DNA of 37,237 nucleotides from a virus, in IMG/VR virus record IMGVR_UViG_3300031521_000190, positions 1-37,237 of that record. The stretch is one strand, 5' to 3'. The translations under genes and the position numbers were made by a program. The notes beneath the pieces were generated by a model. The model saw only the letters and a list, made by a program, of their open reading frames with translations, ran no database searches and was not told the DNA's origin. Shown here piece after piece: positions 7,543 through 33,540 of the stretch. How positions within the stretch are numbered: the first letter of the stretch is position 1; each line of letters opens with the position of its first letter.

Positions 7543-8314
7543 ATTACAGAAAAAATAGTCGGAGAAGAACGCTTAAATAATAAGGGAACACTTATGAGAA
7601 TAATTAAGCATGTAAGTTGTAGTGATATTGACGTTGAGTTTCAAGATAAATACAAACATGTGGTAAGAAATACTACTTATTCAAACTTTACAAAGGGTCA
7701 AATTAAGAACCCCTATGATATAACCGTATACGGCGTTGGAATGATAGGCGCGGGTAAGTATAAAGCTAGAGCAAATGAAAAACGCATGACGAAAGAATAT
7801 GTATGTTGGCAACATATTTTAGAGCGTTGCTATGATTATAAACAAAGAGAAAGACATCCTGCTTATTATCATATATGCAAGATATGCGATGAGTGGTTAA
7901 ATTTCCAAGTGTTTGCAGAGTGGTATGATAATAATTTTTATGAAGTGCCAACTTTGGGGAGAATGCATATTGATAAAGACATCCTTTATCCGGGAAACAA
8001 AATTTATAGCCCGGAGACATGTATTTTTGTTCCACAAAGAATTAATATGCTATTTGTCAACCGTCCTAATAAATCCGGATTACCAAACGGAATAACAAAA
8101 CTCAAAAAAAGGTTATTCAGCCTCATATAACACATCTAAATTAGGAACATATAAAGATATTGAGGCAGCGTTTGAAGTTTATGCCAACAAGAAAGAATGT
8201 GAAATCAGGAAGATAGCTGATTTATATAAAAACTACATACCGCTAGAACTATACGATGCTTTATATCGGTATAGAGTACTAATTGAAAATGATACAAATT
8301 ATATAGCATCTTAG
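7543..8314 (+). pseudogene. Frameshifted HNH/AP2-type protein gene, copy 1
   Basis: First of three paralogs (others 8368-9123 and 32761-33540). The frame is intact to about 8103, then a run of seven A (8104-8110) shifts it and it stops at 8130. Dropping one base restores the family C-terminus (GYSASYNTSKLGTYKDIEAA...) to a TAG at 8312-8314; total length minus one is a multiple of three. Expected protein is about 256 aa, with a central HNH-like region and a C-terminal AP2-like DNA-binding segment. It has no ATG near its ribosome site: AGGAGG is followed 8 nt later by ATT, and paralog similarity (LNNKGTLM) extends upstream of ATG 7594. It may be inactive, or rescued by +1 frameshifting. Confidence 0.75.
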
Positions 8315-8367: not shown

Positions 8368-9123
8368 ATAGATAACAGATTTGGGGAGTTTGGAAAAAAT
8401 TCATTTGGTACAACTATGAAAATTATAAACTACATAAGTAATAATGATTTAGATGTAGAATTTCAAGACGATTATAAATACGTAAAAAGACACTGCACAT
8501 ACTCAAACTTTACTAGGCGCTCCATTAAAAATCCTTATGACAAAAACATTTTTGGAATTGCGTTCATCGGAAATGGTGAATACAAAGCCACGATTGGTCA
8601 TAAAATGTCGGTTGAATATACGTGCTGGTGGCATATGTTGGAGCGATGCTATTATAAAAAGAATGCAAATCTTCATATGGCTTATTATTTAGAGGCAACC
8701 GTGTGTGACGATTGGCTAAATTTTCAAACATTTGCAAAGTGGTATAATCTAAACAAATATGAGGTGAACGAGAGGCTTCATGTTGATAAAGATATATTGT
8801 ATGCAAACAACAAGGTTTATTCGCCAGATACTTGTTTGCTAGTTCCGCAAAGAATAAATATGTTATTTTTAAACAAGCCAAACAAAAGGGGATTGCCAAA
8901 TGGTATAAGCCGTTTTAAAAATGGATACTCCGCAAAATATAATAGTAAGAATCTTGGAAAATATCATACACTCACCGAAGCATATTACAATTATGCCAAG
9001 GAAAAAGAATTGACAATAAAGAGAGTAGCGGAAGAATATAAGAACATCATACCAGAGACGGTTTATGTCACACTACTTAATTACAGGTGTGAAATAGAAA
9101 ATGATAAGAACTACATAGCGTAA
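8368..9123 (+). CDS. HNH/AP2-type putative homing-endonuclease-like protein, copy 2
   Basis: Intact 251-aa paralog. The central region has CWWHMLERCYY, VCDDWLNFQTFAKWY, LHVDKDIL and YSPDTCLLVPQRIN, a pattern of phage stand-alone HNH-type proteins. The end has GYSAKYNSKNLGKYHTL, like an AP2 DNA-binding segment. No classical H-N-H triad is assigned with certainty. Start: the only ATG near the beginning (8416) lacks a ribosome site, while AGGAGGG lies 6 nt before ATA 8368. Residues coded from there (NRFGEFGKNSFGTTM) match the family N-terminus, so AUA initiation is proposed. Its leader is a near copy of the one before copy 1, so the two arose by tandem duplication. Confidence 0.75.
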   Translation: MDNRFGEFGKNSFGTTMKIINYISNNDLDVEFQDDYKYVKRHCTYSNFTRRSIKNPYDKNIFGIAFIGNGEYKATIGHKMSVEYTCWWHMLERCYYKKNANLHMAYYLEATVCDDWLNFQTFAKWYNLNKYEVNERLHVDKDILYANNKVYSPDTCLLVPQRINMLFLNKPNKRGLPNGISRFKNGYSAKYNSKNLGKYHTLTEAYYNYAKEKELTIKRVAEEYKNIIPETVYVTLLNYRCEIENDKNYIA

Positions 9124-16882: not shown

Positions 16883-17995
16883 TTGGGAAAATACGGTAAA
16901 AAAAATGAAGTTAAAATCGATCCGCTTTCATATAACATCTGTCTTTTGGGAGAACCCAAAATCGGGAAAACAACATTAGCAAAAGAGGTTTGCGAAAAAT
17001 TAGCCGGTGAAAATGGATATATATTTTTAGAACTCGCTGGTGAAAGAGGCGCGGATGCAATTCAGGGCATCATCTATGAAGATTGTGATGAGTGGGACGA
17101 CATTGACGATATTGTGGAAGATATTGTAGATAATAAAACTTCTGAGTACTCAGCTTTAAAAGTTGTAGTAACAGATACATATGATGGCTGGGTTAAACTG
17201 GCAGAGCAGGAGGCCATTCGTTTATGGAATAGAGATAATCCAGACAAAATTGCAAAATCTATTGATGCTGCATGGGGAGGATTCCAAAGAGGTCAGCAAA
17301 AGGCTTTTGAGTTAATGTTTGATTTAATATTAAAACTAGACAAAGTGGGAGTTAGAGTTTTTGTGATTGGTCATGTAAAAAATAAAGAAGAGACGGATAT
17401 TGCGTCTGGGATCACATTTAAAACACTGACATCTGATGTAGAGAAAGTTTATTTTAATTTGTTAAAGAAAAAGATGCATTTTTTGGGTCTTGCTTATTAT
17501 GACAGAACGATTATTACGGAGAAGACTGGTAAAAAGAATATTGTAACAAAGAAGGATGAAACAGTTAATAAATTGTCAGACCAGACAAGAAAAATCAAAT
17601 TTAGAGATGATAATGTTGCGGTGGATAGTGGCTCTCGCTTCGCAGATATTACTCCTGAAATTGATATGAGTGCAGATGAATTTATTAAAGCCTTAACTGA
17701 TGCAATTAAAGCAGAGCAGATTAAATCAGGAAAGACATTTGAACAGGCGAAAAAAGAGCAAGAAGCGGAGGAAGTATCAAAGTTAAAAGAAGTCGCAAAA
17801 GCCGAAAAAGAGAAGAGAGAAACAAAAAAACTTGAAGATATTATCTCCAAGATAACAGATTATATCAAGGAGAATAGGTCGAGTATGGATTTAATTAAGC
17901 CAATAATTGACTTAACAAAAGAATTGGGCTATGAAAATCCTACAAAAATTTCAAATGTTGAAGATGCCAAAAAGGTACTTGCTTTAATTTCATAG
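16883..17995 (+). CDS. Sak4-like RecA-fold ATPase
   Basis: 370-aa protein starting with TTG 7 nt after GAGGAGG. A Walker A (GEPKIGKTT, about 23-31) and a Walker B-type strand (VVVTDTYD, about 95) define an AAA_24/Sak4-type NTPase. A VFVIGHVKNKEE sensor-like strand follows. Sak4 proteins are phage single-strand-annealing or recombination ATPases that work with an SSB, encoded just upstream here. The C-terminal third (from about 270) is a long charged coiled coil plus a small helical domain. In SPbeta-type replication modules an AAA protein sits at the equivalent place. Confidence 0.82.
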   Translation: MGKYGKKNEVKIDPLSYNICLLGEPKIGKTTLAKEVCEKLAGENGYIFLELAGERGADAIQGIIYEDCDEWDDIDDIVEDIVDNKTSEYSALKVVVTDTYDGWVKLAEQEAIRLWNRDNPDKIAKSIDAAWGGFQRGQQKAFELMFDLILKLDKVGVRVFVIGHVKNKEETDIASGITFKTLTSDVEKVYFNLLKKKMHFLGLAYYDRTIITEKTGKKNIVTKKDETVNKLSDQTRKIKFRDDNVAVDSGSRFADITPEIDMSADEFIKALTDAIKAEQIKSGKTFEQAKKEQEAEEVSKLKEVAKAEKEKRETKKLEDIISKITDYIKENRSSMDLIKPIIDLTKELGYENPTKISNVEDAKKVLALIS

Positions 17996-18020: not shown

Positions 18021-18479
18021 ATGAGAAAAGTAAAAATGACAAATGTTGAAAAGGATAGTTGGGATAAACTATATCAATATGTTAAGAAAGAAATTTTAAT
18101 ATACGACGATTCTCAGTCAATCCCTTCGAGTCTTGTGTTGAGGCTGAAGGGATTGACAAAAGGAAAATATATTGAAAATAAAAACATTGAAGATATGGCA
18201 AATTATTCGTATGAAGTTGTGCTTTATACTTTTCAAATATGTAAGTCGTCTATTTTTAAATCAATATCAAACAAGACTTTTGAAAATGAACAATACAAAT
18301 TCAATTACATTTGTAAAATTGTAGAGAATAATATTAACGATGTCTATTTAAGAGTAGAAAAATCAAAACATTCCGAAGAAATAATAAATATGGTTGATAC
18401 CAATATTTTAAATTGTGACGGGATATATCTCAAAAAGACAGAAGAGATAAATAATAAAAATCTAAATGAATTGTGGTAG
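18021..18479 (+). CDS. Replication-operon protein, possible helicase loader
   Basis: 152-aa helical protein that I cannot assign to a named family. The pattern PSSLVLRLKGL, then YSYEVVLYTFQICK and FENEQYKFNYICKIVENNINDVYLR, looks like a DNA-binding or adaptor domain of phage replication modules. Its stop lies just before the GGAGG of the DnaB-like helicase gene, so the two are coupled; helicase loader genes often sit there. This role is inferred from position. Confidence 0.65.
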   Translation: MRKVKMTNVEKDSWDKLYQYVKKEILIYDDSQSIPSSLVLRLKGLTKGKYIENKNIEDMANYSYEVVLYTFQICKSSIFKSISNKTFENEQYKFNYICKIVENNINDVYLRVEKSKHSEEIINMVDTNILNCDGIYLKKTEEINNKNLNELW

Positions 18480-18491
18480 GAGGTGTAGTTT

Positions 18492-20000
18492 ACGGCAACT
18501 GCGAAGTCAGCTACAAATGGCAAAAAGATAAGTGCTTTTGAAGAAGAATTAATTGATGCTATAAAGAAGATCAACGAATATAAAGAAGCGTGTGAAGCTA
18601 ATATTGTATCGATATTTTTTAAGAGTCCAGAATCGATATATGAGTCTGCTTTACAGTTAGAAGAATTTAGTAATAATATATGGAGAGTATATTGGACTAT
18701 ATCAAATGATGTTGTAATGGTTGAAAAAAAGAACTCTCTCGATGAAATTACAGTAGGATTATATCTCGAAAAACATGAAAAACTTCGTAGTAAATATGAA
18801 GAATATGGTGGATATAACACTATTGTAAATGCAGGAAATTATGTTAAACAAGAAAATCTTGATGGATACATAAAAGAATTAAGAAAATGGAATTGCGTAA
18901 TTAAGATAGCAAAAAAGGGGTTTGCCGTAAAAGACAGATTAAGTGACTATTGTGATATGACAGCAGAAGAAATATACAATGAATATGAAGCCTTTTTAAA
19001 TGATACATTCGTAAATGTCGACAGCGATGTTAAGAGTTACGATATAAGTGATGGAATATATGACCTTATAGAAAAACTAGACGAGGGTCTAGCGGTTGGG
19101 CTACCATATCATAATATGGACATTGTTTCTAAAGAGACAGGGGGACAATATCTTGGCTCTATTACACTGGTAGGCGGACTTAGTAATGTTGGTAAGTCAA
19201 CATTTGCAAGGAATGCGGTAATACCAAGTGCAATAAAAGAAAAAGAACGTACTGTTGCAATGGTAAACGAAGATAATCTTCAAAAATGGCAACGAGAACT
19301 GTTGATATTTGTTGCAAATAATATTATAAAAGATGATCTACAAAAACACACAGTGAGAAATGGACATTATACGACTGACACAAAAAGCTTATTGTATAAA
19401 GCGGCAGATTGGATTAAAGAGCAAACTCAAAATCATATAATAACAGTTGTTCCATTCAAACAGTATAAGACTGCAAATGCAATTAAGATAATAAAAAAGT
19501 ATTCGAGTATGGGTGTTAAGTATTTTATATTGGATACTTTCAAAATGGACGCAGGTAATGTTAGTGACAAATCATGGTTAGAAATGCAACAGAATATGGT
19601 TGAAATAAACGATGTTATCAAACCAGAATCTAAAAATTTACATATATTAATAACCTTTCAGTTAGCAAAGGGCAGCGTTAAGCAAAGATATTATACACAA
19701 GACAATATAGGAATGTCAAAGAACATTATTGATCCTGCCTCCACATGTATCATGATTAGGGATTTGTATGATGATGAATGTACAGGTGAAAGAAGAGAGT
19801 TAAAGGTGTATCGTTTAGAGGGTAAAAACGGAAAAACAAAAATACCCGTGAAGCTAGATAAAGATAAACATTATCAGATCTTGTTTATCATCAAAAACAG
19901 AGAAGGATCTGCAAATAGATATCAGGTGGTTGTTGAGCATGATATGTCAAGAAATGTAATGCATGAGGTAGGAATTACTAATGTACCAGTAGACTTTTAA
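18492..20000 (+). CDS. DnaB-like replicative helicase with ACG start
   Basis: 502-aa hexameric helicase of the DnaB/RecA superfamily. The N-terminal domain (about 10-160) contains ANIVSIFFKSPES, SNNIWRVYW and VGLYLEKHEK, as in DnaB N-domains. The C-terminal domain has Walker A GGLSNVGKST (about 228-237), then EDNLQKWQREL, the Walker B-like strand FILDTFKMD and ILITFQLAKGS. The first in-frame ATG (18717) would remove half of the N-domain. In-frame, TAG at 18486 is followed by TTT then ACG 18492, 8 nt after GGAGG (18479-18483), so ACG is the only start candidate at a proper distance. It would unwind DNA at the phage fork with the primase encoded next. Confidence 0.85.
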   Translation, partial: TATAKSATNGKKISAFEEELIDAIKKINEYKEACEANIVSIFFKSPESIYESALQLEEFSNNIWRVYWTISNDVVMVEKKNSLDEITVGLYLEKHEKLRSKYEEYGGYNTIVNAGNYVKQENLDGYIKELRKWNCVIKIAKKGFAVKDRLSDYCDMTAEEIYNEYEAFLNDTFVNVDSDVKSYDISDGIYDLIEKLDEGLAVGLPYHNMDIVSKETGGQYLGSITLVGGLSNVGKSTFARNAVIPSAIKEKERTVAMVNEDNLQKWQRELLIFVANNIIKDDLQKHTVRNGHYTTDTKSLLYKAADWIKEQTQNHIITVVPFKQYKTANAIKIIKKYSSMGVKYFILDTFKMDAGNVSDKSWLEMQQNMVEINDVIKPESKNLHILITFQLAKGSVKQRYYTQDNIGMSKNIIDPASTCIMIRDLYDDECTGERRELKVYRLEGKNGKTKIPVKLDKDKHYQILFIIKNREGSANRYQVVVEHDMSRNVMHEVGITNVPVDF

Positions 20001-20017
20001 GGCGGTGATTAACACTT

Positions 20018-21109
20018 ATGACTGTTATCGAGTTAAAAGAGTATATATACGATAATAGTAAGATTGAATTTATATTGAATGAAATTGGGTGCGGTCATAT
20101 AGTGTACCACCCAAATAAAGATTATTACAGCTGTAGCAATTTAAACGGAGATAATATAGCAGCGATAAATATAAAAAACAACAAATACTTAAGCTGTAAA
20201 GATTATACTCGAAAAAAAGATTTTGATGAAAACTCCGATTTGCTTACACTTGTTCAATATAATAAAAGATTACATAATTTAAAATTTTCATTTTTTGATA
20301 CTATTAAATATTTACATAAAATACTTGGTTTGCAACTTAGTTTTAAACAAGACAAAAATGATGATGTACAAATTGATCCGTTATACATATTTAAAAAAGT
20401 AAAGTTAAGAGGATATAGGCAAAATGTATTAGATTATAACGTAATAGATGAAACCGAATTACACGATTTTATACCATATGTTCATATAGATTTTTATAGA
20501 GAAGGGGTAATGCCATGGACTACAAATAAATTTGGTCTTGCATATAGTTATAGATTTAAGAGAACAGTGATTCCATTAAGATATTGGCTTACTGGAGAGT
20601 TAATGGGATTTAATATGAGAACATCTGTTGATAATTATGATTTATTTGGAATTAGTAAATATTTCATTACTCCAGGATATCCGAAACAAATAAATATATT
20701 CGGTCTGTGGGAGAATAAAGATACTATACAAGAAAAAAAATATGTTGTAGTTTATGAAGCTGAAAAATCTGTATTAAAAAGAGATAGTTTAGATGATGGA
20801 ACAGGTGTTGCATTAAGTGGTAATGAGATTTCGGATGAGCAGGTAAAAATTCTTATAGGACTGAATTGCGAAGTAATCATTGCTTTAGATAAAGATATAG
20901 ACATTAATCATATCAGACATTGTTGTGAAAAGTTTTACGGAATTAGAAAAGTATCTTATTTGTATGATAAGTGGGATTTATTAGAAGATAAAGATTCACC
21001 AGCTGATATGTGCGATAAAATATTTAAGTTTATGATGCAATACAGGGTTGTATACGATTCATTTGAACACAATGAATACTTAAAAAGTTTAAAGAAGGTG
21101 GGTGCTTGA
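20018..21109 (+). CDS. DnaG-like primase
   Basis: 363-aa primase-type protein. The N-terminal C25/H27/H31/C39 set followed by C59 resembles a reduced CHC2 zinc-binding domain. The middle is a DnaG-like core (RYWLTGELMGFNMRT). The TOPRIM domain has VVYEAEKSVLK with the catalytic Glu at about 247, VALSGNEISDEQV, the ALDKDID pair at about 289, and DSPADM. It would make RNA primers with the helicase just upstream. It is shorter than cellular DnaG and lacks a visible helicase-binding domain. ATG follows GGCGGTGAT, and its stop overlaps the next start by one base. Confidence 0.85.
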   Translation: MTVIELKEYIYDNSKIEFILNEIGCGHIVYHPNKDYYSCSNLNGDNIAAINIKNNKYLSCKDYTRKKDFDENSDLLTLVQYNKRLHNLKFSFFDTIKYLHKILGLQLSFKQDKNDDVQIDPLYIFKKVKLRGYRQNVLDYNVIDETELHDFIPYVHIDFYREGVMPWTTNKFGLAYSYRFKRTVIPLRYWLTGELMGFNMRTSVDNYDLFGISKYFITPGYPKQINIFGLWENKDTIQEKKYVVVYEAEKSVLKRDSLDDGTGVALSGNEISDEQVKILIGLNCEVIIALDKDIDINHIRHCCEKFYGIRKVSYLYDKWDLLEDKDSPADMCDKIFKFMMQYRVVYDSFEHNEYLKSLKKVGA

Positions 21110-22287
21110 TGGGAAGAAAAACATTTGAGGAATTAAATGATATAAAAAACAAACATGGTGTAAATCGTATGTGGAGCTGGAGCAGATATAATACATGTCA
21201 TAATTCATTATATGAATATTTCCTTAAATACATTTTACACATAAAAGAAGATCGACAAGATTGTATATATGTTGTGACTGGCGGGCTTTCACATGACATA
21301 ATGGAAAAATTATATTTAAATGATATTAAATATGAAGACATGGATAGTCGTTTTGAAGATGCATGGTTAACTGCGAATATTGCAGAGTTAAAGTTTGATA
21401 GAAACGACTTGGATAAAAATAAAAAAATTGCAGACAAATATTATCGAGATTTAAAACACTTTTTTAATAATCATATTGTTATACCATACAAGGTTGAAAT
21501 TGAGAGATTTATAACTATAATGATTGGCAATAATTTGTTTCAGGGGTATATTGATGTGTGTTTTAAAGATAGTGACGATTTCTTTAATATAATGGATTGG
21601 AAAACTTCTTCTATTTATAAGGGAGAAAAGGCGTTAAATGAATGTGGTCAGCTTGTTGTTTACGCAATTGGATTAAATCAGCTGGGAGTACCGCTTGAAA
21701 AAATTAAGATTTGTTGGAATTTCTTAAAGTATGTAAGTGTCGATTGTGAACAGGCAAATGGTAAATGGACTACAAGGGAAATAGAGAGATGCGAAATAGG
21801 CAACAAAATACAGTCAAGTGTTAAGATGTGGCTAAAAAAGCTTGGATACGAAGATGTAATGATGGAATATTTAGATGCACTTGCTCAAACAAATGATATA
21901 AAGTGTTTACCAGATGATATACAAAAAAAATATAAATTTAATGACTGTATTGTATATGTAGACTTAACAAGTAATTTAATTGATAAGTGGACTACAGAAA
22001 TTATTAATACTATCGATGAAATTATTGAAAAAGAAAATAAGTATGAAGTCGAAAAAATTATTGATAAGAATGCAGCGGAGCAAATATTTTTTGATACAGA
22101 AGAACAGGTTTCAAAACAAAGTTATTATTTCGCAACATTGTGTGCTTATTCTCCAAATTTACATAAACCGTATAAAAAGTACTTGGATAAATTAAATGAA
22201 GAGAAAAATGGTTCAAATTTATTTGCCGGTGTTGGTGCGAATTTAACTGAAGAAAAAGAAGACCTGTCGTGGCTCGATCAATTATAG
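21109..22287 (+). CDS. RecB/Cas4-like PD-(D/E)XK nuclease
   Basis: 392-aa nuclease-like protein. It starts with WSWSRYNTCHNS, typical of RecB-type nucleases. The active-site motifs are GYIDVCF with the first Asp, IMDWKTSS with D-x-K at about residue 165, and GQLVVYAIGL with the motif Q. It probably degrades or trims DNA ends during recombination-linked replication. The tail (about 375-392) ends in EKEDLSWLDQL, close to the end of the SSB-like protein at 15627-16817, suggesting a shared partner. ATG 21109 overlaps the primase stop. Confidence 0.85.
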   Translation: MGRKTFEELNDIKNKHGVNRMWSWSRYNTCHNSLYEYFLKYILHIKEDRQDCIYVVTGGLSHDIMEKLYLNDIKYEDMDSRFEDAWLTANIAELKFDRNDLDKNKKIADKYYRDLKHFFNNHIVIPYKVEIERFITIMIGNNLFQGYIDVCFKDSDDFFNIMDWKTSSIYKGEKALNECGQLVVYAIGLNQLGVPLEKIKICWNFLKYVSVDCEQANGKWTTREIERCEIGNKIQSSVKMWLKKLGYEDVMMEYLDALAQTNDIKCLPDDIQKKYKFNDCIVYVDLTSNLIDKWTTEIINTIDEIIEKENKYEVEKIIDKNAAEQIFFDTEEQVSKQSYYFATLCAYSPNLHKPYKKYLDKLNEEKNGSNLFAGVGANLTEEKEDLSWLDQL

Positions 22288-22298
22288 GAGGTGTGTAA

Positions 22299-25200
22299 TT
22301 GGGTGATACTTATACGGTATACCATTTACATGATGATACAAGTAATGTAAATGGTTATGCTGATTCTTGTTCAAATTTTAAAGAATATATAAAACTTGCT
22401 AAAAAACAAGGAATGAAGTCCATAGCATTTTCAAATCATGGTGGAGCATTTGATTGGATAAAGAAAAAACAAGAGTGTGATAAAGCTGGTATTAAATATA
22501 TACACGGAGTTGAGTTGTATCTATGCCATCATTTAGAAGACGATGATAGAGGAGGACATATTGGATTATATGCAAAGAATTTAGATGGCGTACATGAATT
22601 AAATAAATTATTGAGCATTTCAACTTCAAAAGGGATTAAAGATGATAATACCGATAGACACATGTATTATAATCCACGAATTTCACTAGATGAAATAATG
22701 AATACAAGTGACAATATTATAGTTGTAACGGCGTGCCTTGCTTCTCCTTTGAATAGATGGACTTCTGGCGATACAGAAAATAGAGAAGCTTTTAATACAT
22801 TTTTAGACTGGTTAACAAAGAATAAGCATAGATGTTTTTTAGAAATACAATATCATAATGCCACTAGCCAAGTTGACTATAACCGCAAGCTACACTTTAT
22901 AAGTATGAAAACCGGAATACCGTTAATTGCAGGAACAGATACACATTCATCAAATGAGTATAAAGCAAAATGCAGAAAAATATTGCAGATTTATAAGAAA
23001 AGCTATTATGGCGAAGAAGATGAATTTGATTTAGTATGGAAAACTTATGATCAGTTTGTAAATGAGTTTGAGAAACAAAACGCTTTATCAAAAGATATAT
23101 ACATGAAGGCTATAGAAAACACTAATGTATTTGCTGACATGGTTGAAGATTTTAAATTTGACAAAGCATTTAAATATCCTACTTTATATGGAGACAATGT
23201 TAGAGAACAGTGGAAAAACCTAATATACATCAAGTTTAATGAAAAAATTAAAAATGATGTATTAGATTTGCCAAGTAAGATTGTGCGTAAATATGAAGAG
23301 TTTTTAAGATCTGGTCTTTCAGAAGAATACAGTCCGTGTACAAAAGATGTTTATGAAAGATCTTTAACAATGACAGACGAGGAGGGTATAAAAGAATATC
23401 AGAAAAAAATTATAGAAGAATTTTCTGTAATGTGTGAGCTTGGAATGGAAAGCTTTATGATGTTTATGTCAGAACTTATTAGTTGGTGTGATGTAAATGA
23501 TATACCACACGGCACAGGGAGAGGTAGTGTATGTGGAAGTGAAATTGCATATATAACCGATATTACAGATGTCGATCCGATGGTGTGGAATACGGTATTT
23601 TCAAGGTTTTGTAATGAAGACAGGGTTAGTCTTGGAGATATAGATATAGACTTCGCTCCAGAAGATAGAGAAAAGGTATATAAATACATCATTCAAAGAT
23701 TTACTCCAGAGAAGACCGCATATATAGCAACATTTTCAACCTTACAAGATAGAGGGTGCATAGACGTACTTGCAGGAGGACTCGGATATCAAGATTTAGA
23801 TAAAGTAAAAGAAATAAAAGATAAATTCGAGGAATATTTCTCTTCGTATGAAAAGATTATTCAAGAGGAAGTCAATAGTGAAGATCTGGTGGAAGAGGGA
23901 ATACTTGAAACCGGAACTATAGCTTTTGATAATCATGAAATTTATATGACCAGGATTAATAATGAGAGCGCAAAAAACAAAGCGAATAAATTAAAAGAGT
24001 CTTATAATATCTTAATTAAAAACAATCAAGATTTATTCTATTATCTTGATGGTCTTAAGGGGACAATAGTAGCAAAAGGCATACACCCAAGTGGAATTAT
24101 TGGTTCACCAATCACATTGGCAGATAATATCGGATTATTCTATAAAGACGGTGATAAAAATATGCCAGTATCTACCTGTGCAATGAAAGCTGTTGATTCT
24201 CTGAATTATGTAAAGTTTGACATACTGGGATTGAAGACTGTTGGAATCATCAAAGATGCTTGTAAGTATGCTGGTATAGAGTATCCAAAATCTCATCTAA
24301 TCAACTGGAGAGATAAAAATGTATGGGATAATATGATAACATCTCAACAAGGAGTGTTTCAATTTGAGGGTGACTTTGCTTTCAATTTATTAAAAGATTT
24401 TAAACCAACAACTATAAATCATATGTCCATGGTAAATGCTGCATTAAGACCTTCTGGGAAGTCGTATAGGAATAGATTAATTTCTGGTGAATTTAATAAA
24501 AATCCATCTGAAGAAATTGATAAGTTGTTGGAGGGTAATAGAGGGTATCTTATATTTCAAGAAGATACAATTAAATTTTTAACTAACATATGCGATTTCA
24601 CGGGGTCAGCCGCAGATACAACACGTCGAGCAATTAGCAAAAAAGACGACGATCTATTAAAAGAGCAGTTACCAAAAATATTAGACGGATATTGCAAACA
24701 CTCACCTAAAGAAAAAGGCGTTGCAGAAAATGAAGCGAAGCAGTTTGTACAAATTGTGCAGGATTCTTCCGAGTATCAGTTTGGATTAAACCATTCTACC
24801 GCATACTCAATGAATGGTTATGAATGTGTAATGTTAAGGACTTACTACATAATTGAATTTATTGCTGCGTATTTAAATAGGGCTGACAATAAAGAAGATA
24901 CTAATAATGGAGTGGAGTTAGCAAAACAATACAGCATATCAATCAATCCAATCAAATTTGGTAAATCACTTTCAGAATATACAATAGACAGAAAAAACAA
25001 TGCAATATACAAAGGCATCGAATCAATAAAGTTCTGTAACGCAATAATAGCAAATGAATTAATGGAATTATCGAGAATTAAAGATTATAAATCGTTCCCT
25101 GAACTATTGAAAGATATCAAGGAAAAAACATCTGTTGACGCAAGGCAATTAAAAATATTAACCGGATTAAACTTTTTCCAACAGTTTGGTAATAATAAGT

Positions 25201-25736
25201 ATCTTTTAAATATCATTGATATTTATGATCAATTTGCTACATGTAAGCAGATAAATAAAAATAAACTTGAAGGTCTTGGGTTGTCTGAGTATGTTATTAA
25301 AAAATACTCTAATAAGGAAACGGTAGCATTGTATAAAGAAATTGACAACATAGGTCTAATTAAAGAGCTGTGTTCAAAAGTTGAGAACAGAGCAATGGGA
25401 ATTATTGAATCAATGCAGTTTGAAAAAGAATATCTTGAATACATTATTTACACCAATCCAGATGTTAATGAATTATATTATATTATAACCGAATTTAAAA
25501 CATATAAAGACGCTGCGAAGCCATATATTACAGCACGTCAGATAAAAACTGGAATTGAAACAAAGTGCAGAGTAAAACGCGGTAATGTATTTAAGGAGAG
25601 TCCATTTGGTTTATATTCCGTATTGAAAATCAATGAGTTTGATCAAGAGTTTAAAAAGAGGCCAAATGCTGAAGGTAAGTGGGTTCCGATAGATGAACTT
25701 GAAGATGTATTAAATGAATATGAGGTGATAAAATAA
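22299..25736 (+). CDS. dnaE: DNA polymerase III alpha subunit (DnaE type)
   Basis: 1145-aa C-family replicative polymerase, starting with TTG 7 nt after GGAGG. The N-terminal PHP domain begins TVYHLHDDTS and retains H9/H11, a RGGHIGLY segment and GTDTHSS. The palm has GRGSVCGS and the catalytic GDIDIDF at about 445-452. Later come HPSGIIGSP, KFDILGLKTVG, GVFQFEGDF, RRAISKKDDD and NHSTAYSMNGYE, all normal DnaE landmarks. The C-terminus after about 950 diverges, and no beta-clamp motif was clearly found. It would copy the phage genome; SPbeta-type phages carry a similar gene (yorL). Confidence 0.97.
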   Translation: MGDTYTVYHLHDDTSNVNGYADSCSNFKEYIKLAKKQGMKSIAFSNHGGAFDWIKKKQECDKAGIKYIHGVELYLCHHLEDDDRGGHIGLYAKNLDGVHELNKLLSISTSKGIKDDNTDRHMYYNPRISLDEIMNTSDNIIVVTACLASPLNRWTSGDTENREAFNTFLDWLTKNKHRCFLEIQYHNATSQVDYNRKLHFISMKTGIPLIAGTDTHSSNEYKAKCRKILQIYKKSYYGEEDEFDLVWKTYDQFVNEFEKQNALSKDIYMKAIENTNVFADMVEDFKFDKAFKYPTLYGDNVREQWKNLIYIKFNEKIKNDVLDLPSKIVRKYEEFLRSGLSEEYSPCTKDVYERSLTMTDEEGIKEYQKKIIEEFSVMCELGMESFMMFMSELISWCDVNDIPHGTGRGSVCGSEIAYITDITDVDPMVWNTVFSRFCNEDRVSLGDIDIDFAPEDREKVYKYIIQRFTPEKTAYIATFSTLQDRGCIDVLAGGLGYQDLDKVKEIKDKFEEYFSSYEKIIQEEVNSEDLVEEGILETGTIAFDNHEIYMTRINNESAKNKANKLKESYNILIKNNQDLFYYLDGLKGTIVAKGIHPSGIIGSPITLADNIGLFYKDGDKNMPVSTCAMKAVDSLNYVKFDILGLKTVGIIKDACKYAGIEYPKSHLINWRDKNVWDNMITSQQGVFQFEGDFAFNLLKDFKPTTINHMSMVNAALRPSGKSYRNRLISGEFNKNPSEEIDKLLEGNRGYLIFQEDTIKFLTNICDFTGSAADTTRRAISKKDDDLLKEQLPKILDGYCKHSPKEKGVAENEAKQFVQIVQDSSEYQFGLNHSTAYSMNGYECVMLRTYYIIEFIAAYLNRADNKEDTNNGVELAKQYSISINPIKFGKSLSEYTIDRKNNAIYKGIESIKFCNAIIANELMELSRIKDYKSFPELLKDIKEKTSVDARQLKILTGLNFFQQFGNNKYLLNIIDIYDQFATCKQINKNKLEGLGLSEYVIKKYSNKETVALYKEIDNIGLIKELCSKVENRAMGIIESMQFEKEYLEYIIYTNPDVNELYYIITEFKTYKDAAKPYITARQIKTGIETKCRVKRGNVFKESPFGLYSVLKINEFDQEFKKRPNAEGKWVPIDELEDVLNEYEVIK

Positions 25737-28037
25737 TTGAAAAGTAAAGATGAAGAAAAAATACTATTTAAGGGCAGAATAGTAAGACAGACGTATGACG
25801 GAGGAGACTATAAAATATATGCGGTAGATGTTGATAAAAACATCTACCCAGATATTAAATTCACGAAATATGGTAATGCTACTGTGCTTGGAGAAATACA
25901 TGATTTGGGAGTTGGTATAGAATATGAAATAACAGCAATAGAGCAAAGTACAAAATATGGATATAGTTATAAAGTGGTTAATATAAGAAGAAACAAACCT
26001 CAATCATCAGAAGATATGTATGTGTTTTTACAGGAGATACTCACTTTAAATCAGGCTCAGACTTTATATAATGTATATCCTGATATAGTAGACAGAGTTA
26101 TGAATAATAATCTTGACGATATCGATCTGAACAAACTTAATGGTATAAAGGAATACACATTCAATATAATAAAAGATAAAATTGTTGAAAATTTCTGTTT
26201 AGCAGAGTTAGTTGTAGAATTTCAGGGGTTATTAAGTCTTCCAATGTTAAAGAAATTGCATGAAAAATATACGTCCATTCAGATAATAAAGAATAAACTC
26301 TCCGGAGATCCGTATAAGTGTTTGTGCGGTTTGGCAAGAGTTGGATTTTCAACAGCCGATAACATTTTGTTAGAGTTAGAGAAAATCTCAAAAGAAAATA
26401 TTAAAAATGGAAAACAAGAAATCATTAATTTTGATTCAGATTTAAAAACAAGTAAACACAGATGCTTGTCGTGTATGTTGTATTTATTAGAAAAGAACGA
26501 AGAAGATGGACACACACACATGTCTATAAGCGACTTAAGAAACCAATGTATTAAAATGGTTCCGGCTTGTTCAGATCATTTTATTAACTGCATTAAACAT
26601 GAAAGTGTCTATTACAATAAGGATATGATGGTAGTATCATTAAAAGCCACATATGATATCGAAAAATTTATAGCAGATGAAGTCGTTCATGGACTAATAA
26701 ATAATATAAACAAGTGGGACTTTGATTATAAGAAATACCATATTGTAAATGGCTGTGAGTTGTCAGATGAGCAAATTGAAATCGTGAACAATGTTTGTAG
26801 ACACAATATTTGTATTTTAAATGGTGCTGGTGGTACAGGAAAATCATTTTGTACACAGGCCGTAATCAATATGCTTAAGGATAATAACAAGTCATTCAGA
26901 CTCTTTTCTCCAACAGGCAAGGCTGCGAAGGTGTTATCTGACTATACAAAAGAAAATGCAACAACAATTCATAGAGGATTAGGATATATTCCTCCTGACA
27001 CATGGAGCTTTAATAATCAACACAAGTTAGATTGCGATGTATTGATTATTGATGAGTTCTCGATGACTGACATATTCCTTTTTAAAAGAATATTAGATGC
27101 GATCGATTTCAACAAAACGAAATTGTTAATGATAGGTGATAACGCACAGTTGCCATCTGTATCATGTGGAAATTTGTTACATGATTTTATGCAGTCTAAC
27201 ATCATACCAACTATAACACTGACAAAGGTGTTTAGATATGGCGAAGGCGGGCTTATGAAAGTGGCAACAGATGTGAGGTTTTGTAAAGAGTATTTATTAG
27301 ATATAAATAATCAGCTTACGTGGTTTGGAGAAAATAAGGATTATGCTTTCATCAACATTGGAAGTAGTATTATGGTAAAAAACGCTGTTGCATTATACGA
27401 AAAACTGTTGTCACAAGGATATAAAACTGAGGATATTCAAGTGTTAACTGCATATAAAAAAGGGGATTGCGGTACAATCACAATTAACAATGAAATACAA
27501 AAGGTCGCAAATCCCAATTATGGAAGTTCTGAGTGTATGAAGATAGGTGATATAGTTTACTTCAAAGGTGACCTAATTATACAGAATGTAAACAATTATC
27601 ATGCTCAATTGTTTATTGATGACGACTATGTATTTGGAGAAGATGTACCGGAAGAAATATTTATAGCTAACGGTGAAACAGGAGTTGTAAAAGACGTATT
27701 TACAAATTATTTATTGATAGATTTTGATGGAACAACCGTCAAGTATTACAGAAACGATATGCAGATGGCGGGACTCGGTTATTGTATAACAATACATAAA
27801 TCACAGGGCAGCTCCATAAAGATTGTAATATTACTTACACCACAGGCTCACACATATATGCTAAATTCAAACTTGATATATGTGGGGTTAACAAGAATGA
27901 AAGAGAAGTGTTTTCATCTTGGGAATATGGATACAGTAAATATGGCAATAAAAAAGAAAGCGAACTTTACAAGAAATACATTTATGCAGATTTTAATCAA
28001 AGAAAATGTAGTAAAACTGAGTAATAAAAGCGCATGA
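25737..28037 (+). CDS. RecD/RecD2-like DNA helicase
   Basis: 766-aa superfamily 1B helicase starting with TTG directly after the polymerase stop, behind GAGGTGA. The N-terminal 320 residues contain an OB-like strand region and helix-hairpin-like repeats, as in RecD2. The motor has motif Q-like DEQIEIV, Walker A GAGGTGKS at about 362-369, FSPTGKAAKV, TTIHRGLGY, motif II DVLIIDEFSM, MIGDNAQLPS and, at the end, GYCITIHKSQGSS and YVGLTRMKE. It acts 5' to 3' in known relatives and probably aids replication or recombination. It closes the replication operon. Confidence 0.93.
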   Translation: MKSKDEEKILFKGRIVRQTYDGGDYKIYAVDVDKNIYPDIKFTKYGNATVLGEIHDLGVGIEYEITAIEQSTKYGYSYKVVNIRRNKPQSSEDMYVFLQEILTLNQAQTLYNVYPDIVDRVMNNNLDDIDLNKLNGIKEYTFNIIKDKIVENFCLAELVVEFQGLLSLPMLKKLHEKYTSIQIIKNKLSGDPYKCLCGLARVGFSTADNILLELEKISKENIKNGKQEIINFDSDLKTSKHRCLSCMLYLLEKNEEDGHTHMSISDLRNQCIKMVPACSDHFINCIKHESVYYNKDMMVVSLKATYDIEKFIADEVVHGLINNINKWDFDYKKYHIVNGCELSDEQIEIVNNVCRHNICILNGAGGTGKSFCTQAVINMLKDNNKSFRLFSPTGKAAKVLSDYTKENATTIHRGLGYIPPDTWSFNNQHKLDCDVLIIDEFSMTDIFLFKRILDAIDFNKTKLLMIGDNAQLPSVSCGNLLHDFMQSNIIPTITLTKVFRYGEGGLMKVATDVRFCKEYLLDINNQLTWFGENKDYAFINIGSSIMVKNAVALYEKLLSQGYKTEDIQVLTAYKKGDCGTITINNEIQKVANPNYGSSECMKIGDIVYFKGDLIIQNVNNYHAQLFIDDDYVFGEDVPEEIFIANGETGVVKDVFTNYLLIDFDGTTVKYYRNDMQMAGLGYCITIHKSQGSSIKIVILLTPQAHTYMLNSNLIYVGLTRMKEKCFHLGNMDTVNMAIKKKANFTRNTFMQILIKENVVKLSNKSA

Positions 28038-32760: not shown

Positions 32761-33540
32761 ATCGCAGATAAAAGATTAATTGACAAAACTGGTGAAATTA
32801 GAACAAATAATAAAGGTACAGAAATGGAAATAATTAGATATAGATGCCATTCAGACATGGATATCGAGTTTTTAGATAATTATCATTACATCAAGAACCG
32901 TACTACATATTCAAATTTTATCAATGGACAAATCAAAAATCCGTTTGATAAATCAGTGTATAACATTGGATACATTGGCGATGGGATTCATGCTTGCAGA
33001 CTAGACAAAGACGGAATGACTCAAGAATATGAATCATGGTTACTTATGCTAAGAAGGTGTTATTCTGAGAGAAATAAAAATAAATATCCTGCATATTTTG
33101 GAATTTGCTTTGTAAATCAAGATTGGCACAATTTTCAGAATTTTGCAGAATGGTATAAAGAAAATAGATATGATGTCAATGAGCGACTGCATTTGGATAA
33201 AGATATTTTAAATCCGGGAAACAAAGAATACTCTTCGAAAAAGTGTTTACTTGTTCCGCAAAGAATAAATGAATTATTCACATACAAGAGAAATAACGAT
33301 GGACTTCCAATGGGGGTAAGAAAAACTTCTACTGGTAGATATAGCACCGGATATAATGGTAAAAATATTGGAACATTCAATACATTGAAAGAAGCGTTTA
33401 GCATGTATAAAGTACATAAAGAATCAGCAATTAAAGAGGTAGCAACAGAGTATAAGAACATTATACCATCAAAGCTTTATGACTCGCTATTAAACTATGA
33501 GGTAATTATTGAGAACGATATAAATTTTAGAGTGTCATAA
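32761..33540 (+). CDS. HNH/AP2-type putative homing-endonuclease-like protein, copy 3
   Basis: 259-aa paralog of the genes at 7543 and 8368. It shares LMLRRCYSERN, WHNFQNFAEWY, LHLDKDILNPGNKEYS, LLVPQRIN and an AP2-like ending (GRYSTGYNGKNIGTFNTL). The annotated-style ATG 32824 has no ribosome site, while AGGAGG lies 9 nt before ATC 32761. The residues from there on (RLIDK.. and NNKGTEM) match copy 1 (RLNNKGTLM). An in-frame TGA stands at 32755, so no ATG, GTG or TTG start is available at this position. Confidence 0.75.
   Translation: MADKRLIDKTGEIRTNNKGTEMEIIRYRCHSDMDIEFLDNYHYIKNRTTYSNFINGQIKNPFDKSVYNIGYIGDGIHACRLDKDGMTQEYESWLLMLRRCYSERNKNKYPAYFGICFVNQDWHNFQNFAEWYKENRYDVNERLHLDKDILNPGNKEYSSKKCLLVPQRINELFTYKRNNDGLPMGVRKTSTGRYSTGYNGKNIGTFNTLKEAFSMYKVHKESAIKEVATEYKNIIPSKLYDSLLNYEVIIENDINFRVS

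Follow-up and report, generated by a model that had tools for sequence, protein, structure and literature searches.

The window analyzed here, from a gut-type bacterial virus, is a whole IMG/VR virus record of 37,237 bases. Its replication block contains the gene order Sak4/AAA (YorG), YorH, helicase (YorI) and toprim primase (YorJ), together with a RecD-like helicase gene starting at 25737 (Table 1). Thomasclavelia phage TR-TP2 and phage FADO have the same order, and the FADO record labels homologues of the B. subtilis YorG and YorJ. We take these homologues to be SPbeta genes, and the genes lying between them to be yorH and yorI; the window shares both gene order and homology with this SPbeta/FADO-like yorG-yorH-yorI-yorJ cassette. 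Unlike the window, where ACG is the likely helicase start, TR-TP2 uses ATG for its helicase (and GTG for its primase). TTG, itself a weaker start, apparently opens the Sak4-like (16883), exonuclease (21106), polymerase III alpha (22299) and RecD-like (25737) genes. We considered whether the YorH-like protein might be a known helicase loader and dropped the idea, since its AlphaFold model (pLDDT 79) gave no significant fold match in the PDB.

Table 1. Features of the replication block, the helicase start site and the HNH start candidates in the window.
Feature	Position	Strand	Basis or remark
HNH start candidates behind strong SDs (GGAGG)	ATT 7543, ATA 8368, ATC 32761	+	window scan
Sak4-like/AAA_24 ATPase (YorG-like)	16883-17995	+	profile matches
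152-aa helical protein (YorH-like, phrog_25520/6344)	18021-18479	+	profile matches, model
Extended Shine-Dalgarno GGAGGTG	18479-18485	+	match to SD consensus; overlaps upstream stop codon
In-frame TAG	18486-18488	+	bars any longer helicase reading frame
ACG, inferred helicase start codon	18492-18494	+	8 nt after GGAGG; ATA in aligned relatives, same register
DnaB-type replicative helicase (YorI-like), 502 aa if ACG is the start	18492-20000	+	phrog_19, AlphaFold model
Codons 14-76 of the stop-to-stop frame	18528-18716	+	N-terminal domain lost with a start at ATG 18717
ATG	18717-18719	+	first in-frame ATG; internal, unlikely start
Toprim DNA primase (YorJ-like)	20018-21109	+	phrog_47; ATG start in the window
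PD-(D/E)XK exonuclease	21106-22287	+	profile matches; TTG start; used as control gene
PolC/DnaE-type DNA polymerase III alpha	22299-25736	+	profile matches; TTG start

The preliminary description of this DNA had pointed to a GGAGG at 18479, an ACG 8 nt beyond it, an in-frame TAG upstream and a first ATG at 18717. We confirmed all of these coordinates, and ORF inspection found no in-frame GTG or TTG between the ACG and that ATG either. The upstream gene ends TTG TGG TAG (LW*) inside the helicase ribosome binding site (RBS), so that the last base of its stop codon is also the first G of the GGAGG core (18479-18483, plus strand). A TTT separates the second TAG from the ACG, from which the frame is open to a TAA at 19998-20000. 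The predicted pairing energy of the Shine-Dalgarno (SD) sequence with the anti-SD is -15.2 kcal/mol, the strongest of the 32 window starts examined; among random positions in the window, 0.03% attain this value. Folding of the RNA from 18440 to 18560 revealed no special structure (z -0.6), and a tRNA search turned up no unusual initiator tRNA in the window.

The product matches the DnaB-like replicative helicases of PHROG 19 (phrog_19) in a profile search (E 1.3e-30), with no Pfam match at 0.001. It carries the Walker A motif GGLSNVGKST, in which G235 and K236 are invariant and S237 nearly so among 20 sequences. Its AlphaFold model has a pLDDT of 70.6 overall and ~90 for the N-terminal domain. 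Crystal structures of DnaB can be aligned with it over ~490 columns (E 1.3e-12); the overall domain arrangement is uncertain (TM about 0.36-0.40). Judged by sequence and model, the ORF is a full-length DnaB-type helicase, with a predicted N-terminal domain and a RecA-like C-terminal domain.

In close relatives of the helicase (82-85% amino acid identity) the ACG aligns with an ATA, in the register GGTGG/GGCGG-8 nt-ATA and with the same spacing as in the window; their start sites read ...GGTAAGGTGGTGAAAAAC-ATA-TCA and ...GGTAAGGCGGTGAATGTT-ATA-GCT. Among them are records of two genomes, Eubacterium plexicaudatum ASF492 and Lachnospiraceae MD308, and the ATA clade is spread over many contigs and cultured-host genomes (prophages). 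Because a GTG sits inside the SD of these relatives (the L002, L011 and L023 groups), ATA is their likely, not their obligatory, start. Four other groups lack any ATG, GTG or TTG: ATA is found in L022 and in L066, ATT in L072, and ATA or ATT in L106/L107/L130, the last of these being Thomasclavelia cocleata DSM 1551. The start of L256 is also non-canonical, its codon being uncertain (ATT or, 3 bases on and a better fit by spacing, GTA). L100 starts with TTG at the DNA level, and the remaining relatives have ATG, TTG or GTG at the same place, each behind its own RBS. The pattern is thus ATA in the nearest relatives, ATT, ATG or TTG in others, and ACG in the window contig only, this codon being absent as a start from all helicase relatives. 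In the cultured Bacilli relatives examined (phages and phage-plasmids), both helicase and primase starts were canonical throughout, either ATG or TTG.

In a helicase tree built without the start region, 12 of the 12 non-canonical rows then known fell in one 36-row clade. This tree needs 7 switches between canonical and non-canonical starts, at least 3 of them forced by well-supported (starred) branches. In relatives the position of the ACG, behind the same RBS, is filled by ATA, ATT, ATG or TTG, so a rare start on this helicase looks like a family trait.

The adjacent primase shows the same habit in another part of the tree. Primases starting with ATT or ATA occur in L099, L102-L105, L108, L123, L124, L126, L129, L242, L254-L256 and others, mostly behind SDs of the GGCGGTG type, and the codon aligns with the ATG of relatives (MTVIELK versus INADELK); a GTG lies in or near the SD of a few of them (L254, L256, L312, L313 and L317). 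Many of the ATT primases (L099, L103-L105, L108, L126, L129, L242 and L255) read ATT AAT GCA, a sequence that also contains an ATG in another frame, 4 nt past the start.

Neighboring genes served as controls. We grouped each family at 90% identity and counted clusters having no ATG, GTG or TTG before the conserved N-terminus, with a cutoff of 5 codons past the aligned start for primases and 12 for the other genes. Six of the 74 helicase clusters and 8 of the 82 primase clusters had no canonical start, compared with none of the yorG-like (0/44), yorH-like (0/84) and exonuclease (0/63) clusters. Some dependence among the clusters remains, which makes the p-value of the combined difference (14/156 versus 0/191; Fisher p=1e-5) indicative. 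A smaller set, scored with one limit of 20 codons for every gene, flagged 5 of 81 helicases and 4 of 70 primases, versus 0 of 176 for the other four genes. SD strength separated the two kinds of start as well: counting likely but not obligatory ATA/ATT cases among the rare starts, the median was -13.2 versus -9.3 kcal/mol for helicases (p=2.5e-4) and -13.6 versus -11.6 kcal/mol for primases (p=8e-6).

Non-canonical starts are nevertheless a minority within each gene family, are single-step derivatives of ATG and lie scattered on the tree, as might be expected if ACG, ATA and ATT had arisen by slightly harmful drift or as variants of recent loss, with strong SDs simply making them tolerable and no regulation involved. 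We regard this account as unlikely, though it deserves some weight. Drift does not readily explain why rare starts are confined to helicase and primase and missing from the three neighboring gene families, why ATA has been retained across so widely spread a clade, or why the SD is systematically stronger where the start is rare.

An error of sequencing or assembly, with an ordinary ATG as the true codon, is an improbable explanation. The ACG is known from a single metagenome contig and differs from ATG by one transition (base 18493), and with that change GGAGGTGTAGTTTATGGCAACT would be an ordinary RBS. An exact pattern scan allowing any base at the middle position of the codon found no second contig with this site, with either ATG or ACG; the one near-identical contig known begins at helicase residue 154, downstream of the start. 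However, an ATG is not what the close relatives have: theirs is ATA, over many contigs and genomes of cultured hosts. Rare starts recur in both helicase and primase, and an extended SD, their usual companion, precedes the ACG too. Since ATA or ATT also turns up in related viruses, on the helicase or its primase neighbor, translational restraint of the replication-fork machinery looks like a recurring strategy of phages and not a sequencing slip.

A shorter helicase made from the ATG at 18717, alone or alongside the longer form, would use the first canonical start in the frame, at the cost of 75 codons. The preliminary description had left the choice between this and the ACG undecided, while noting that the DnaB N-terminal domain is coded before 18717. 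The latter point is borne out by several kinds of evidence. Codons 14-76 are under strong purifying selection in comparisons of the window with 13 relatives (pN 0.13-0.34 versus pS 0.55-0.96; pN in the remainder of the gene is 0.09-0.23), and they contain invariant residues. In the AlphaFold model, the well-predicted helical N-terminal domain spans approximately residues 16-145, and its first helices (residues 16-45 and 63-78) are those assigned upstream of 18717. With selection acting on these codons, and with helices of the DnaB N-terminal domain encoded by them, we consider initiation at 18717 very unlikely. In all relatives, moreover, the region is coded downstream of an RBS of their own, with the start at the same place, which favors the ACG.

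The upstream gene and the helicase share a frame in the window, as a fusion made by stop readthrough or frameshifting without any separate helicase start would allow, but we give this practically no credence: two stops intervene (TAG GAG GTG TAG), a strong RBS occupies the junction, and the varying relative frame of the two genes among relatives (0, +1 or +2) argues against a conserved event of either kind. What is preserved at the junction is the end of the upstream protein: nearly all relatives have LW* there, or now and then LF*, within a few bases of the helicase start, such that the terminal TGGTAA or TGGTAG adjoins or forms part of the helicase RBS. Because the upstream stop overlaps the SD and LW* is found near the helicase start in nearly every relative, it is plausible that helicase translation is tied to the upstream gene.

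Together, these observations make it likely that the helicase is translated from the ACG at 18492, by a weak and probably IF3-sensitive initiation that is rescued by the extended SD beside the upstream stop and that would keep the helicase scarce. In the mechanism we propose, the near-perfect extended SD (GGAGGUG) on the stop of the YorH-like gene would hold a 30S subunit over the ACG, perhaps one that has just terminated at that gene. Initiator fMet-tRNA would pair imperfectly with the ACG and begin the protein with methionine. This second-position mismatch, which ATA and ATT avoid, leads us to expect ACG to be a very poor start, below either of those codons. The weak initiation would be repressed by IF3, as at the starts of infC (AUU), sigR (GUC) and ccpN (AUA), giving a low helicase level, with relatively more helicase made when IF3 is limiting. 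Related phages would reach the same end by starting either the helicase or the adjacent primase with AUA or AUU.

These parallels come from cellular genes. Start codons outside the set AUG, GUG and UUG are subject to repression by IF3, whose own gene, infC, is autoregulated through an AUU; in Streptomyces, the GTC start of sigR is repressed by IF3 and sets a protein ratio (PMC5472188). In S. aureus, ccpN (AUA), cvfC1 (AUU) and infC (AUA) combine rare starts with extended SDs and yield ~10-30% of the AUG level, with no ACG example found in that study (PMC13009471); Listeria reporters rank ATG above ATA and ATA above ATT (PMC13068326). The helicase resembles infC, sigR and ccpN in two respects, a probable start other than AUG, GUG or UUG and an extended SD, GGAGGTG, at 8 nt, and we infer that it would likewise be sensitive to IF3. 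By analogy with the measured Firmicute cases (PMC13009471, PMC13068326), it is plausible that low initiation sets the helicase level.

Each known system also differs from the phage gene. infC, in the bacterial genomes checked, shares with the helicase a non-AUG/GUG/UUG start behind a strong SD of the GGAGGTG type, but it encodes a bacterial translation factor that regulates itself with AUU, whereas here a phage replication gene would use ACG, with its second-position mismatch. In sigR a rare start doses one protein of a co-translated gene pair, which is the likeness; there the issue is sigma/anti-sigma stoichiometry and the IF3 dependence is demonstrated, whereas for the helicase it is predicted. 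Like the helicase, the S. aureus genes pair a rare start with an extended SD in a Firmicute setting; they differ in being cellular. Their SDs agree with the stronger SDs that we find at phage rare starts. In seven of the seven bacterial genomes checked, all of which carry these cassettes, infC starts with ATT behind an SD, and the phage site GGAGGTGTAGTTT-ACG resembles such infC sites (for example, GGAGGTGAAAGTT-ATT); host infC is a likely regulatory parallel for the phage start. The genome of Anaerovorax sp. IOR16 (G004, the genome of L126) has two infC-like genes, on contigs C9 and C12, both with ATT starts.

We therefore read the helicase site best as the infC/sigR/ccpN kind of start-codon control, newly placed on phage primosome genes; a literature search of incomplete coverage returned no paper describing rare starts for the helicase or primase of a phage. 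If this reading is right, start-codon weakness would be a recurring phage means of holding down primosome proteins, and codons that IF3 discriminates against would be in use beyond a handful of genes of cells. Gene callers limited to ATG, GTG and TTG would then shorten these helicase and primase genes or put their starts in the wrong place.

A scan of the whole window for strong SDs with non-canonical starts returned four sites only: the helicase ACG and three HNH homing-endonuclease-like genes (7543-8130, 8368-9123 and 32761-33540, plus strand). In each of the three the conserved N-terminus has no canonical start, the first ATG coming only after an in-frame leader of 16-21 codons. It is conceivable, although we hold the idea only tentatively, that clostridial phages wire their primosome (helicase and primase), and here also homing endonucleases, to the host balance of IF3 to ribosomes through infC-type sites (an extended SD with AUU, AUA or ACG), such that fork assembly would follow the translation state of the host. 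Among HNH relatives, L334 has an ATG at or next to the position of 8368, and L332 and L333 have ATT or ATC. Lastly, in IMG/VR record 2896054739 a relative of one of the window's HNH genes (L336:970-1001) reads AGAGGTGATAAA-ACG; suitably spaced after its SD, this ACG resembles a start, although the frame also contains an ATG farther upstream, at 956, that has no SD.
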